From: a virus
Length of the DNA stretch: 26,860 nucleotides
Virus record (IMG/VR): IMGVR_UViG_3300012964_000051
Span: 1 to 26,860 of that record
Strand: one strand, 5' to 3'
Part shown: positions 18,901 through 24,498 of the stretch, piece after piece
Layout of the letters: each line of letters starts with the position of its first letter
How positions within the stretch are numbered: position 1 is the stretch's first letter
Translations under genes and position numbers: made by a program
Notes under the pieces: generated by a model
The model's database searches: none
What the model was told of the DNA's origin: nothing
The model's input: the letters and a program-made list of their open reading frames with translations, nothing else

Positions 18901-19298
18901 ACGCGGGGTAGTGGGTGGGTGGCTACTGTGTAGCACGGTGCGCACGGCTAAATTCAACAATCTGTGACCACATGCTTCAAATAATCTGAAGTGACTCGTC
19001 ATCATAAACACGAGCGCCTCTAATAACGGCGGGACTTTCGACGACGTATATTAGGGTTTTCAAATATACACATTATTGAGGTCTGACCTTTTATATATTT
19101 ACTCTACTTATTATATGTAGTGGCCTACCCTACTGCGTATTTACTACTATATATACTACTATTTATATTCTATAAATATTGAAGTAGTGAAGTAATAATC
19201 GCTGAAAGCCAATAACAACAGGACTTTCAGCGACTTTCACATCTTCAAATAAGCTGAATAAAGCTGAACTATATTGAAAACACCGCAATCTCGGAGCG

Positions 19299-19321
19299 TT
19301 GCGCCGCCGCTTGTGTAGAAT
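19299..19321 (+). promoter_or_regulatory. Possible rightward promoter before the Q-like gene
   Basis: CTTGTGTAGAATGC repeats the -10 context of the 19.74 kb promoter (CTTATGTAGAATTGC), but no -35 lies at the right distance; TTGCGC at 19299 is only 11 bases away. It may need an activator. Confidence 0.3.
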
Positions 19322-19357
19322 GCCTGCCATCAGCGTGCGTAAGAGGAGACGACGAAG

Positions 19358-19714
19358 ATGAAACTATGCAGCGTGGAGATGGAAGATGTTCTGCGTAACT
19401 GGGCGCGATGGGCGTGTGGTTCCGCAGGAGGCCCAGAGCACCGACTTAGTTCTCTTGAGGGAAGATACATAGTTCCCGACAATGAAGAGGATGTACGAAA
19501 GAGAAATTACAATCCAGTTGACAACGCATCCGCCGAACGAATAGAGAAGATAGTCCGTTCTCTTGAATCGCGCAAGAAGAAACTCATCAAGCACTATTAC
19601 ATCCACCGATCAAATCCAAATCACGTCTGCCGCCGCATGCGAATATCGCACACTACGTACGAGCTGGAACTGCTTTCCGCCCACAGCTACATCGCGCACA
19701 TTTACATGGCGTAG
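19358..19714 (+). CDS. Q-like late antiterminator / sigma70-region-4-like regulator, 118 aa
   Basis: ATG 19358 has GAGGAG nine bases upstream. The product begins with a tryptophan-rich segment (VLRNWARWACGSAGGPEHR) and then has AERIEKIVRSLESRKKKLIK, HYYIHRSNPNHVCRRMRISH and TTYELELLSAHSYI, the layout of phage antitermination Q-type and ArpU/sigma-like helix-turn-helix proteins (conserved W near the start, then A-E-R-x-x-x-x-V-x-x-L, a CRRL-x-IS turn and a final helix). It directly precedes the late genes and a promoter, as Q does in lambda-like phages. The family assignment is by layout, not by a diagnostic motif. Stop TAG overlaps the next promoter box. Confidence 0.65.
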   Translation: MKLCSVEMEDVLRNWARWACGSAGGPEHRLSSLEGRYIVPDNEEDVRKRNYNPVDNASAERIEKIVRSLESRKKKLIKHYYIHRSNPNHVCRRMRISHTTYELELLSAHSYIAHIYMA

Positions 19715-19746
19715 TCACTTGCTTTTTTAACTGGCTTATGTAGAAT
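19714..19746 (+). promoter_or_regulatory. Late promoter with GTCACTTGC box
   Basis: GTCACTTGC (19714-19722) overlaps -35 TTGCTT; 16-base spacer; -10 TAGAAT (19741-19746). It points at the terminase operon and would place the long stem-loop in the leader. Confidence 0.6.
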
Positions 19747-19753
19747 TGCACGC

Positions 19754-19876
19754 ACAATTCAACCTTTCCTGTCAGTTCATGGACAGTGCGTTCATCGCCG
19801 GTCACGGTGGCTCGACTGCCTCCAAGAATCAGCAAGTCTGCTGTTTATGAACTGAACCCACAGACAATTCAACCTT
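19754..19876 (+). repeat. Direct repeat ACAATTCAACCTT in the terminase leader
   Basis: Two 13-base copies at 19754-19766 and 19864-19876, 110 bases apart. The second copy is inside the loop of the long stem-loop. The sequence between also repeats CTGTC...GACAG hairpins. Confidence 0.7.
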
Positions 19877-19939
19877 CTCCTCACGTTCTGTCTTCATAGA
19901 CAGCAGACTTGCTGATTCTCAGTGGCGATGATGCACTGT
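19783..19939 (+). promoter_or_regulatory. ~157-nt long stem-loop upstream of terminase
   Basis: Inner stem: 19825-19851 pairs with 19893-19919 over 27 positions, all Watson-Crick except one T-G. Outer stem: 19792-19799 with 19924-19931 (8 bp), then 19783-19789 with 19933-19939 (7 bp). Top helix: 19860-19864 with 19887-19891 (5 bp). No T-run follows, so it is not a simple terminator. It starts about 35 bases after the predicted late promoter and ends 58 bases before the TerS start. Confidence 0.8.
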
Positions 19940-19997
19940 GCGGAGCAGCAGAAATTCTGTTTGACAGAATCGATCACTCATCCGGAGAAGTGCAATC

Positions 19998-20588
19998 ATG
20001 GGCGCGTCAGCATCCACATCAAAGAACTCGCGACCTCGCAGCGGACTTACCCAGAAACAAGAAAGATTCGCATTGGAGTTTGTCAAGTGCGGTAATGCAA
20101 GCGAAGCATATCGTAAGTCGTATGAAGTCAGGTCCGCGACAACGCAAAAAACAGTGAACGAGCAAGCGTCCAAATTACTGGCGCACCCCGGCATCTCCAC
20201 AAGGATCGCAGAGCTCCGCTCAAAAATTGAGCAGAAGACAGAGATCACGATTCAAAGAATTGCTGAAGAACTTGCTCGCGTCGCCTTCGCAGATCAACGT
20301 AAAGTTATGCGATGGGGACAGCACGGTGTGACGCTCCACGACTCCGACGACCTGAGTGACGACGCAGCCGCTATCGTGTCCGAAGTATCTGAGACAACCA
20401 CGAAGGACGGGGGTAGTATCAAGCTGAAGTCCCACGACAAGGTTCGCGCGCTTGAGTTGCTTGGGAAACATATGGGCATGTTCAAGGAGAAGCTGGAAGT
20501 GACGACGCCAGGATCTGCGCAGCAAGAAGCGAAGATTCCGGCAGACGCTGTGGAGGCATCAAAAACGTACAAAGACCTCATGGGCTAA
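19998..20588 (+). CDS. terS: Terminase small subunit (Terminase_2 family), 196 aa
   Basis: Residues about 15-85 match Terminase_2: LTQKQERFALEFVKCGNASE, AYRKSYEV, TVNEQASKLLAHPGISTRIA. This N-terminal part is the DNA-binding helix-turn-helix and oligomerisation core; the C-terminal part (LKSHDKVRALELLGKHMGMF) is typical of the family. The protein recognises the packaging site and loads TerL. ATG 19998 has GGAGAAG seven bases before it. A long stem-loop lies upstream and may be the packaging site or a regulatory RNA. Next gene starts 3 bp after the stop. Confidence 0.93.
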   Translation: MGASASTSKNSRPRSGLTQKQERFALEFVKCGNASEAYRKSYEVRSATTQKTVNEQASKLLAHPGISTRIAELRSKIEQKTEITIQRIAEELARVAFADQRKVMRWGQHGVTLHDSDDLSDDAAAIVSEVSETTTKDGGSIKLKSHDKVRALELLGKHMGMFKEKLEVTTPGSAQQEAKIPADAVEASKTYKDLMG

Positions 20589-20591
20589 GTC

Positions 20592-20813
20592 ATGACGCTA
20601 CCCGCACACATGTACCGCGATCCGCAACAAGTAGCCATTCGTAACGAGGAAGAACACAACCGCAAAGAGGCCGCGTGCGGCGAGTGTCGCGAGCGCGTCA
20701 GCTTCCACTGGTACGGCGAGGAGTTGGTGAATTGCGAGTTGAAGTATGAACACTACGGCCATCGCTGCGAACATTTCCGCAAGCGCAGCCCCGATACTGA
20801 AGAGAACGACTGA
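20592..20813 (+). CDS. Small Cys-rich protein between terminase subunits, 73 aa
   Basis: Product starts MTLPAHMYRDPQQVAIRNEE. Cysteines at ACGECRERVSFHWYG, NCELKYE and HRCEHF, plus histidines, suggest a zinc-binding fold. ATG 20592 has only a weak SD; the internal ATG at residue 7 is an alternative. Its TGA overlaps the TerL ATG (TGATG). Small proteins of this kind between TerS and TerL are known in phages but their job is not. Confidence 0.7.
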   Translation: MTLPAHMYRDPQQVAIRNEEEHNRKEAACGECRERVSFHWYGEELVNCELKYEHYGHRCEHFRKRSPDTEEND

Positions 20814-22435
20814 TGCCTCTTGCCTTCCCACATGACTGGAAACAACCTGACATTGTAGCGGTGTTTCGGTGGCGCGCCGAACGCTTGCAGCGTATCCGCC
20901 AGAACCCCGAGAAGATACCGGCGCTGAAGAAGTATTACGCCGAGCACCCAGCCCAATTTATCAACGACTGGGGCTGCACGGTGGATCCGCGTAACGTAGA
21001 CCGCAAGCTGCCCGCCGTGATGCCGTTCCTGCTGTTCCCCAAGCAGGAAGAGTGGATTGAGTGGTGCGTCAAGCACTGGCAAGAACGCGAGAACGGACTC
21101 ACTGACAAGTCACGTGACATGGGCGCGTCGTGGCTTACTGTTGCGCTCGCCGCTACCATGTGTCTTCATCATCACGGGTTCTCTGCGGGCTTCGGCAGCC
21201 GCAAGGAAGAGTATGTTGACTTGATCGGCAGCCCGAAGAGTTTGTTCTGGAAGGCCCGCGAGTTCATCAGCATGTTGCCGGTTGAGTTTCGCGGCGGGTG
21301 GGTGCGCGGCAAGCACGACCCGCACATGCGCATTATCTTCCCGGAGTCGCAGAGCGTGATGACCGGCGAGGCCGGAGACAACATAGGTCGCGGTGACCGC
21401 ACTTCTATATACTTCGTTGATGAGTCCGCTCACATTGAGCGCCCCGAGTTGATTGAAGCCTCACTGTCCGCAACCACCAACTGCCGCATGGACTTGTCCT
21501 CCGCTAATGGTATGAACAACGTGTTCGCGCAGAAGCGATTCGGCGGTAAGATCGACGTGATGACGTTGCACTGGCACGACGACCCGCGCAAGGATGCGGC
21601 ATGGTACGCGACGCAACAGGAGAAGCTAGACCCCGTTACGCTGGCGCAAGAAGTTGATATCGACTACAACGCCAGCGTCAAGGGCGTGCTCATACCGTCT
21701 GCGTGGATCGCCGCTGCTGTGGACGCGTGCGCAAGGCTTGGCATTAAGGTTACTGGCAGCAAGCAGGCGGCGCTGGATGTGGCTGACGAGGGCGTTGACC
21801 TCAATGCATTCTGCGGCATGCGCGGCGTGCAGATCGAGCACATGGCGGAATGGAGCGGCAAGGGTGGCGACATCTACGATACGGTGCAGCACGCGTTCCA
21901 ACTGTGCGACGAGGGCGGATACAAGGATCTGCGCTACGACGGCGACGGCCTCGGTGCCGGTGTGCGTGGTGACGCGAAGAACATCAATACTGCACGCACG
22001 AAGAACAAGGTGTATGCAGTCAAGTGTGAGTCGTTCCGTGGTAGCGAGTCGGTCATCAACCCAGAAGCCAAGGTTGAAGGGACTGACCGCACGAACGAGG
22101 ATTACTTCGCCAACCGCAAGGCGCAGGCGTGGTGGAATCTCCGCACCAAGTTCAAGCGGACGTATCGCTGGGTCGTGGAGGGAATACCCTGCGACCCTGA
22201 CGACATCATATCAATAGCGCCGAACTGCACCAATCGGCAGAAGCTGGTGACCGAGCTCTCACAGCCCACGTATAAGATCAACGACGCGGGCAAGATCATT
22301 GTGAACAAAGCACCAGATGGCAAGAAGTCACCGAACCTTGCTGACGCAGTGATGATCGCGAACGCGGGCAACGACAAGCAGCTTATGAAGATCAGCGCAG
22401 CAACAGTGCAGGCAATGCGAATGAGGAAATCCTGA
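20813..22435 (+). CDS. terL: Terminase large subunit, 540 aa
   Basis: The ATPase domain has a Walker A-like DKSRDMGASW (about 98-107, the K-x-R-x-x-G-x-S form seen in terminases) and Walker B IYFVDESAH (Asp203, Glu204). The nuclease domain has acid residues in AALDVADEGVD (322-325), RYDGDGLG (376-378) and PNLADAVMIA near the C-terminus, the three-metal-ligand pattern of the RNase H-fold. It pumps DNA into the prohead and cuts it. It is coupled by TGATG at both ends. Confidence 0.95.
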   Translation: MPLAFPHDWKQPDIVAVFRWRAERLQRIRQNPEKIPALKKYYAEHPAQFINDWGCTVDPRNVDRKLPAVMPFLLFPKQEEWIEWCVKHWQERENGLTDKSRDMGASWLTVALAATMCLHHHGFSAGFGSRKEEYVDLIGSPKSLFWKAREFISMLPVEFRGGWVRGKHDPHMRIIFPESQSVMTGEAGDNIGRGDRTSIYFVDESAHIERPELIEASLSATTNCRMDLSSANGMNNVFAQKRFGGKIDVMTLHWHDDPRKDAAWYATQQEKLDPVTLAQEVDIDYNASVKGVLIPSAWIAAAVDACARLGIKVTGSKQAALDVADEGVDLNAFCGMRGVQIEHMAEWSGKGGDIYDTVQHAFQLCDEGGYKDLRYDGDGLGAGVRGDAKNINTARTKNKVYAVKCESFRGSESVINPEAKVEGTDRTNEDYFANRKAQAWWNLRTKFKRTYRWVVEGIPCDPDDIISIAPNCTNRQKLVTELSQPTYKINDAGKIIVNKAPDGKKSPNLADAVMIANAGNDKQLMKISAATVQAMRMRKS

Positions 22436-24498
22436 TGAACACAGCACTTCGCCGAATCATCGCCGCAGTAAGGGGCGCGCTCCAAGGTCTGCGCTCCGGG
22501 TTCCGCAGCGTGACGGAGGTGCCGGTCAATGCGCCCAAGTTCGAGCAGCCGCAGGACGCGAGCGCCAAAGAGCTGCGAGAGCAGTACCGCATGGCCGTTG
22601 CGACAGCGGTCGCCAAGATGAAGTCCGAGCAAGAGGCTGCGCAACCTGTAGTCACCGTACAGGACATATTCAAAGTGACCAAGCCCCCGAAAGGCGTGGT
22701 TCCCGCTGACCAGCAGATGGCGTTCGACCAGTCGCTTGAGGACCTCAGCAGCGTGATGGGGTGGGCGACTACGAACAGCCTGTTCGTCGAAGGGTTGATG
22801 TTCCTAGGTTACCCGTACCTCGCGCAACTGTCGCAGCGGCCGGAGTACCGCGTGATCAGCGAGACGTGGGCGCAGGAAATGACCCGCAAGTGGATACGGC
22901 TCACGGCCACCAGCGGCGGGCAAGACAGCACCAAGCAGAAGGTCGACAAGATGACCGCCATCGAGGCAGAACTCAAGCGGCTCAAGGCGCAGGATGCGTT
23001 CAAACGCTGCGCGGAGTTGGACGGGTCCTTTGGGCGCGGCCACATCTACATCGAGTTGACAGACGTCGATAGCAAAGATCGCGACGAACTGAAGACCAGC
23101 ATCGGCGAGGGCACCGGTGCCATCAGCAAGGCGAAGATCAAGCAGGGAAGTCTCAAGGGTCTGCGCGTGGTGGAACCGGTGTGGACGTATCCCAACGGAT
23201 ACAACGCCAATGATCCGCTGAAGTCCAACTTCTTCAAGCCCGACACGTGGTTCGTGATGGGCACTGAAATACACAGCACGCGCCTGCTGACGTTCATAGG
23301 CCGCCCGATGCCCGACCTGCTGAAGCCCGCGTACAGCTTCGGCGGCCTTTCGCTGTCGCAGATGGCGAAGCCCTACGTTGACAACTGGCTGCGCACGCGG
23401 CAGTCCGTGTCCGACGCGGTAAGCAACTTCAGCATCATGATGCTGATGACGGATATGTCATCCATGCTGCAGGAAGGGGCGATGACAGATCTCGTTACGC
23501 GAGCCGACTTCTTCAACACCACACGCAACAATCGCGGCTTGATGGTGGCAGACAAGAACACCGAGGATCTGAAGAACGTGTCCATGCCGTTGGGCGGGCT
23601 GCACGAATTGCAGTCTCAGTCGCAGGAGCAGATGTGCTCTGTGTCGCAGATACCTCTCGTCAAGTTCACAGGCATACAACCCGCCGGATTGAACGCCGAC
23701 TCCGAGGGCATAATCAAGGTATTCTACGATAAGGTCAACGCGCAGCAGGTAGCGCTCTTCAACGACAATCTGTCCAAGCTCATCGCGATTATACAGCTCA
23801 GTCTGTTCGGGGAGGTAGACCCAGAGATCGGATTCGTGTGGGAACCGCTGGACACGCTGGACCCGTCCGCGGAAGCTACACGTCGCAAGACCGAAGCCGA
23901 CACAGATGCTGTGTATCTGGATCACGGTGTTGTGATGCCTGCGGAGGTGCGCACCAAGCTCGCGGCGGATGACATGTCGCCATATGCTTCTCTTGATACT
24001 GATGCTGAGTTGCCTGATGTCAGCGAGCAGGAAGGCGGCGAGGTTGATGAGGAGACCGGCGCTCCGCTGATGGACGGACTGCTGAATACGGATGAACAGA
24101 AGTCACCGGCGATGTCTGCCGCAGGCGTGCTCTTCATCACGACGGAACAGCCGCCGCGCGTCCTGCTGCTCAAGCGCTCCGCCGACGACACTCGGCATCC
24201 TGGGTTCTGGGATATTCCTGGCGGCAAGACCGAGGATGGCGAGTTTGCTGTGCAGACAGCCGTTCGCGAGGCGGCAGAAGAGACTGGCGCTGACGTAGGC
24301 TCACAGCACTTGCGGCAGGTAGCCCACACACAGTGGAACGACGTGGATTACACCACGTTCTCCGCGCAGGTAGACAAGCCGTTCATCCCGGTGCTTGATA
24401 GCGAGCATGAGACTTACACATGGGCGAGCGTGCCCACGCTGCCGTCACCTATTATCCTACCGCTCGAAGAACTGCTGCACAACGTACTGGAGGCCTAG
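22435..24498 (+). CDS. DUF1073-type portal protein fused to a C-terminal NUDIX hydrolase, 687 aa
   Basis: Residues about 90-500 look like a DUF1073 portal: FVEGLMFLGYPYLAQLSQRP, TWAQEMTRKWIRLTA, WLRTRQSVSDAVSNFS, and ISQIPLVKFTG-like VSQIPLVKFTGIQPAG. An acidic linker (about 530-555) leads to a complete NUDIX domain at about 557-687: strand AAGVLFITTE, PRVLLLKRS, HPGFWDIPGG and the box G597-x5-E-x7-R-E-A-A-E-E-T-G (to 618). All metal-binding glutamates are present. Portals form the DNA entry pore of the head; NUDIX enzymes cleave nucleoside-diphosphate-X substrates. The frame is continuous with no internal stop. It ends TAG, then TTATGA couples to the next gene. Confidence 0.92.
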   Translation: MNTALRRIIAAVRGALQGLRSGFRSVTEVPVNAPKFEQPQDASAKELREQYRMAVATAVAKMKSEQEAAQPVVTVQDIFKVTKPPKGVVPADQQMAFDQSLEDLSSVMGWATTNSLFVEGLMFLGYPYLAQLSQRPEYRVISETWAQEMTRKWIRLTATSGGQDSTKQKVDKMTAIEAELKRLKAQDAFKRCAELDGSFGRGHIYIELTDVDSKDRDELKTSIGEGTGAISKAKIKQGSLKGLRVVEPVWTYPNGYNANDPLKSNFFKPDTWFVMGTEIHSTRLLTFIGRPMPDLLKPAYSFGGLSLSQMAKPYVDNWLRTRQSVSDAVSNFSIMMLMTDMSSMLQEGAMTDLVTRADFFNTTRNNRGLMVADKNTEDLKNVSMPLGGLHELQSQSQEQMCSVSQIPLVKFTGIQPAGLNADSEGIIKVFYDKVNAQQVALFNDNLSKLIAIIQLSLFGEVDPEIGFVWEPLDTLDPSAEATRRKTEADTDAVYLDHGVVMPAEVRTKLAADDMSPYASLDTDAELPDVSEQEGGEVDEETGAPLMDGLLNTDEQKSPAMSAAGVLFITTEQPPRVLLLKRSADDTRHPGFWDIPGGKTEDGEFAVQTAVREAAEETGADVGSQHLRQVAHTQWNDVDYTTFSAQVDKPFIPVLDSEHETYTWASVPTLPSPIILPLEELLHNVLEA

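Follow-up and report, generated by a model that had tools for sequence, protein, structure and literature searches.

A long rod-like structure, conserved in shape and without an intrinsic terminator, between a Q-like gene and the terminase genes of a virus

We analysed a rod-like stem-loop of 157 nt that lies between a Q-like antiterminator gene and the gene of the terminase small subunit (TerS) in the window, that is, the whole stretch of 26,860 nt of viral DNA considered here (IMG/VR record IMGVR_UViG_3300012964_000051, positions 1 to 26,860). The rod is a strong structure, its pairing is kept in the closest relative against the divergence of the letters, the sequence before it has the promoter layout of its Q family, and no intrinsic terminator is found in the leader. 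We consider, with moderate confidence, that the rod forms a structured 5′ leader on a late (packaging) transcript under the control of Q and that it is processed in cis by RNase III. The coordinates of the features are collected in Table 1.

Table 1. Features of the window between the Q-like gene and TerS (positions of the window; 26-pair helix, main helix of the rod).
Feature	Position	Strand	Basis or remark
Q-like antiterminator gene, phrog_19609 family, 118 aa	19358..19714	+	Profile matches; 44% identical to the L007 gene
-35-like hexamer TTGCTT	19719..19724	+	Q-family comparison; missed by the consensus scan
-10 hexamer TAGAAT, spacer 16	19741..19746	+	Q-family comparison
Direct repeat, copy 1 (CACGCACAATTCAACCTT)	19749..19766	+	Repeat search
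CACAAT, -10-like, in the initial transcribed region; putative sigma-dependent pause element	19753..19758	+	6 nt past the -10 hexamer; Q-family layout
Local hairpin CUGUC/GACAG, which could form instead of the base of the rod	19769..19786	+	Sequence and alignment A1; also in L007, where one pair is U-G
Rod, 157 nt: basal helix, small side hairpin, long helix and pyrimidine-rich apical loop	19783..19939	+	MFE -80.0 kcal/mol
26-pair helix, 5′ arm	19825..19850	+	
Direct repeat, copy 2, inside the apical loop	19859..19876	+	Repeat search
26-pair helix, 3′ arm	19894..19919	+	
Short hairpin ATTCTG-TTTGA-CAGAAT	19954..19970	+	Alignment A1; in L007 stem kept, loop changed
Shine-Dalgarno-like GGAGAAG of the TerS gene	19984..19990	+	Sequence
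Terminase small subunit (Terminase_2)	19998..20588	+	Different family in L007

The region 19740-20000 had a minimum free energy (MFE) of -106.9 kcal/mol, against -70.7 (sd 4.5) in dinucleotide shuffles (z -7.99), and none of the 200 shuffles folded as well. A preliminary description had read a stem-loop of about 157 nt here and had judged it far beyond chance, and folding bears out both statements (z about -8.0). It was also about right on the inner stem, given as 27 positions with one G-U and extended by helices of 8, 7 and 5 bp: the main helix consists of 26 consecutive pairs, one of which is U-G. A repeat search gave the inverted-repeat arms as 19818-19851 and 19893-19926, 88% complementary, and in the basal helix 19783-19800 pairs with 19923-19939, with the small side hairpin between the basal and the main helix. 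The rod is not an assembly artefact.

A scan with TerL gave 80 loci, of which the closest was L007, on an independent viral contig (78% identity). By blastn among 86 loci, the leader was seen only in L007, the window's own copies aside. The gene order in L007 is that of the window (Q-like gene, leader, TerS, small ORF, TerL), and its element, again of exactly 157 nt, stands in the same place, before an unrelated TerS gene. The small ORF between TerS and TerL (20592-20813, 73 aa, Cys-containing) is 66% identical in L007 and gave no family match. In alignment A1, the flanks of the rod are largely unchanged (39 of 41 positions at 19753-19793 and 50 of 56 at 19933-19988); of the 159 columns of the rod itself, 64 are substituted and 4 contain a gap.

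The corresponding stretch of the relative (L007:366-612) folds with a z of -3.5. When the 64 substituted letters were redistributed among their columns 1000 times, on the structure-blind alignment, the mean MFE was -34.8 (sd 4.6), and no permutation was as low as the -57.6 of L007. A covariance model built from the window alone matched L007 with 99.6 bits (E 5e-25). In the alignment fitted by this model, which leans towards structure, both sides had changed in 12 of 57 pairs, and 92.9% of the cells were paired, against 30-44% in slid versions. In the structure-blind alignment covariation in the classical sense is weak: only 3 pairs had changed on both sides, a number reached by 49 of 500 shuffles. 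Counted without gaps, 13 pairs differ, 9 of them on both sides, but this figure includes a register shift counted as several changes; with the shift resolved by eye (one base lost per arm), about four pairs changed on both sides and one changed on a single side remain. The permutation, the covariance model and the pair-change counts thus indicate, in two sequences, that pairing is kept despite divergence and that site-by-site covariation is modest. In this comparison of two members, which amounts to one lineage comparison, the folded shape of the rod in L007 is kept more than its letters.

The same description had named a Q-like gene and a promoter upstream of the rod. The gene stands at the family level, with profile matches to phrog_19609 (2e-16) and to phrog_79, 'anti-termination protein Q-like' (1e-6); its match to Pfam PF06530, at 22.8 bits, is under the curated cut-off of 26. 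As for the promoter, a consensus scan found none at this locus, and it was the comparison within the Q family that identified one. Precisely, we considered 21 loci with a Q match: the window, L007, the Burkholderia phages KS9 and BgVeeders33, two loci in G343 (the sole genome with a Q-family match among 398 searched) and 15 further IMG/VR loci. In 19 of the 21 loci, a -10 hexamer followed after 5-6 nt by CACAAT (in one case CAGATT) is present near the stop of Q; it is absent from L114 and L116. The loci are not independent of each other, since L100 and L108 come from one phage and others are near-identical. A run of at least five T after a hairpin, about 100 nt further on, was found in 17 of the 19 loci other than the window and L007, the same two lacking it. 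In G343 such a Q, promoter and terminator are followed, about 2.2 kb further down the same contig, by a TerL with 62% identity. The Q of KS9 and BgVeeders33 is 27-33% identical to that of the window, and these phages have the same promoter layout with the CACAAT element; unlike in the window, their leaders are of about 100 nt, end in a canonical terminator with T5 and have no long rod. The spacers between the -35 and -10 hexamers, where a Q binding element was looked for, are unequal across the window, L007 and the Burkholderia loci.

No terminator was found on the + strand of the window and L007 leaders, either by a terminator scan or by the T-run test; the latter is the better of the two, since the scan also missed the KS9 terminator. 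Within 19300-20800 the scan found no stem followed by a T run on the + strand, and the Q-dependent terminator suggested earlier is, as an intrinsic terminator, not supported; the more general suggestion of a Q-associated region is supported, as a Q-associated late leader with a maintained RNA structure.

The 13-base element of the loop, said to be present also 110 bases earlier, is an exact direct repeat (ACAATTCAACCTT, spacing 110), and an equally long repeat was found in 2 of 5000 mononucleotide shuffles. In L007 it is absent as a repeat, the longest exact direct repeat there being 8. According to a paper on the 21Q structure, the sigma-dependent pause at the late promoter is mediated by a sequence resembling a -10 element within the initial transcribed region (PMC6606751), and on this basis copy 1 of the element falls on the predicted pause element. 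This accounts for copy 1, as the region of the promoter-proximal -10-like element, but not for copy 2. Because the window and L007 have the promoter layout of the Q family in common, with a rod and without a terminator, we take the 13-base element to mark the pause element of a pR′-type promoter, and the rod to form a structured leader on the late transcript that Q controls.

According to this preferred reading, the late transcript would start near 19753, at a Q-controlled promoter of the pR′ type directly after the Q gene, and the -10-like element would hold RNA polymerase so that Q could load. The next approximately 190 nt would fold into a rod selected as structure, in the position that tR′ takes in other phages of this Q family. 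The rod would close while the new RNA emerges from the (Q-modified) polymerase and would act in cis on the late transcript, and RNase III would cut the long helix, which would set the stability and the 5′ end of the terminase mRNA. As regards the criterion for an RNase III site, about two turns of near-perfect dsRNA, the window has 26 pairs and L007 has 13 pairs, a 4x4 internal loop and 9 pairs; this loop interrupts the helix, and so the L007 helix is probably a weaker substrate.

In known systems, the nearest likeness is with the lambdoid Q-dependent late leader (pR′ to tR′), which also has the Q gene directly upstream, a -10-like element among the first bases of the transcript and an untranslated leader before the late genes; the window differs in that it has a long rod instead of an intrinsic terminator and terS as the first late gene. 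Hairpins processed by RNase III are found in phage leaders at the T7 R sites and in the lambda N leader, and they resemble the rod as long, near-perfect dsRNA in an untranslated leader, although the rod, a candidate for such processing, is larger and carries a side hairpin and a basal helix. The put RNA of HK022, which reportedly acts without a protein on early transcripts, is likewise an RNA that takes on a structure while being transcribed, shortly after a phage promoter; unlike there, the window has a Q gene, and its RNA is one long rod.

The main rival to an RNase III-processed leader is transcription gating in place of tR′: the hairpin, which lacks a canonical U tract, would halt or end transcription by itself or together with Rho, and Q would let the polymerase pass. 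The rod does sit where 17 of the 19 other Q-match loci have an intrinsic terminator, a Q-controlled promoter needs something to overcome, and the 21Q-type nozzle hinders hairpin formation at the RNA exit channel, according to the discussion in PMC7969949. However, no U run follows any hairpin of the window or L007 leaders, and we regard such gating as unlikely. Equally doubtful to us is a further reading, namely that in a late operon under Q control a long conserved RNA rod has taken the place of the terminator and is sensed by Q or by the Q-modified polymerase; the late genes would then be switched by folding and processing of dsRNA and not by termination. The current understanding of Q antitermination is that it overcomes terminators; a Q-type late promoter with a conserved dsRNA rod and no terminator would, if real, raise the question of what Q overcomes. 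A natural comparison is on offer here, with the same Q family and promoter followed by a terminator in one group and by a rod in the other.

The remaining alternatives are less probable still. A packaging site (cos or pac) read as DNA beside the terminase gene would explain why the rod is directly upstream of terS and would suit the close similarity of the TerL proteins; yet the TerS proteins belong to different families (phrog_51 in the window, phrog_15261/18735 in L007), aligning only in their last 20 residues, and the L007 leader is kept, nearly identical, as far as the Shine-Dalgarno region. If TerS recognised a site there, the site would be expected to change along with TerS, whereas the leader was kept. 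Moreover, the most strongly kept letters include the promoter and start region, and inside the rod it is the pairing that is kept, not the letters. The TerS packaging site of the preliminary description is therefore unlikely, and we give cos or pac in general a low probability as the reason for the conservation. A stable small RNA acting in trans, for example through the pyrimidine-rich loop, could be imagined by analogy with StxS, a small RNA of Shiga-toxin phages. It would be consistent with a discrete rod whose loop is unpaired and can pair with the GGAGAAG of TerS at -11.5 kcal/mol (2.3% of shuffled loops being equally good). We rejected this loop-to-Shine-Dalgarno pairing as weak: for the L007 loop and its TerS ribosome site, 23% of shuffled loops are equally good, and the window loop pairs better with the leader of the Q gene itself (-12.4 kcal/mol). 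As no terminator would give a free 3′ end and there is no Rfam match, a role in trans seems quite improbable. Last, the rod may be a DNA quasi-palindrome without any RNA role, kept by templated mutation or used as a cruciform or replication signal. Template switching in inverted repeats can keep arms complementary without selection, so that templated repair could mimic kept pairing, and two phages whose replication module is related, AXL_3 and PW916, likewise carry a long hairpin ahead of terS. Against this, the rod has a separate basal helix whose arms, about 120 nt apart, reform with different letters, and its length is the same in the window and L007; strand-specific G-U versus A-C differences between the two rods are too few to decide between a DNA and an RNA role. 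We consider this last explanation very unlikely.

Further members were searched for in several ways. With Rfam 15, no match in the window was above the gathering score, the hairpin having only three sub-threshold matches, to microRNA precursors, and L007 had no match. Further viral scans found no such leader except on the contig of L007, and blastn in phages and plasmids found no other. Model R2 gave one chance-level match (13.8 bits) in 65 loci and none in 274 genomes, where an empty answer proves little. A 19-letter pattern matched genome contigs 8 times, against about 7.5 expected by chance (an estimate), always without the rest of the leader, and an 18-base match in L006, within an apparent coding stretch, was taken as chance. 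A mobile or repeated element was rejected, the record of the window having only the rod and the rod's own inverted repeat. In a survey of rods upstream of TerL in relatives (43 loci, 22 having been dropped, one as the window's own copy and the others as near-duplicates by eye), the 8 folds inspected were not leader rods; with 8 shuffles the z values were noisy, and L007 itself reached only -3.1. We found no description in the literature of a rod upstream of terminase.

Some observations concern related phages. Between the window (19998-20588) and L007 (L007:607-1032), TerS is replaced by an unrelated TerS, and the exchanged part is sharply delimited: it starts at the start codon and stops short of the last 20 residues. 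AXL_3 (L125:3401-3546 joined to L126:1-34) and PW916 (L123:3401-3580), which are phages of Stenotrophomonas and Pseudoxanthomonas, have, after the replication genes and before terS, a long hairpin (about 115-120 nt) that is unrelated in sequence to the rod of the window (z -6.5 and -8.2, 30 shuffles). Their polymerase is 43% and their primase 39-40% identical to those of the window, the annotation shows no Q gene from their primase to their terminase genes, and the passages searched in the AXL_3 and PW916 papers contain nothing on genome ends or terminators. At a contig end, L084:1-150 forms a long stem of GTAGGTGAT-type repeats and their complement.

Elsewhere in the window, the AT-rich intergenic region 19012-19357, from the leftward genes to Q, folds strongly (z -6.4 at 19081) and contains a stem of 9 bp (CGCTGAAAG/CTTTCAGCG), and it is possibly an origin or a divergent promoter region. 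Both contig ends (1-255 and 26770-26860) carry tandem repeats of 15 bp; the short peptide repeats that they encode differ, and the contig may have broken at the repeats. A portal protein (Phage_portal_3) and a C-terminal NUDIX domain are encoded in one reading frame at 22435-24498.
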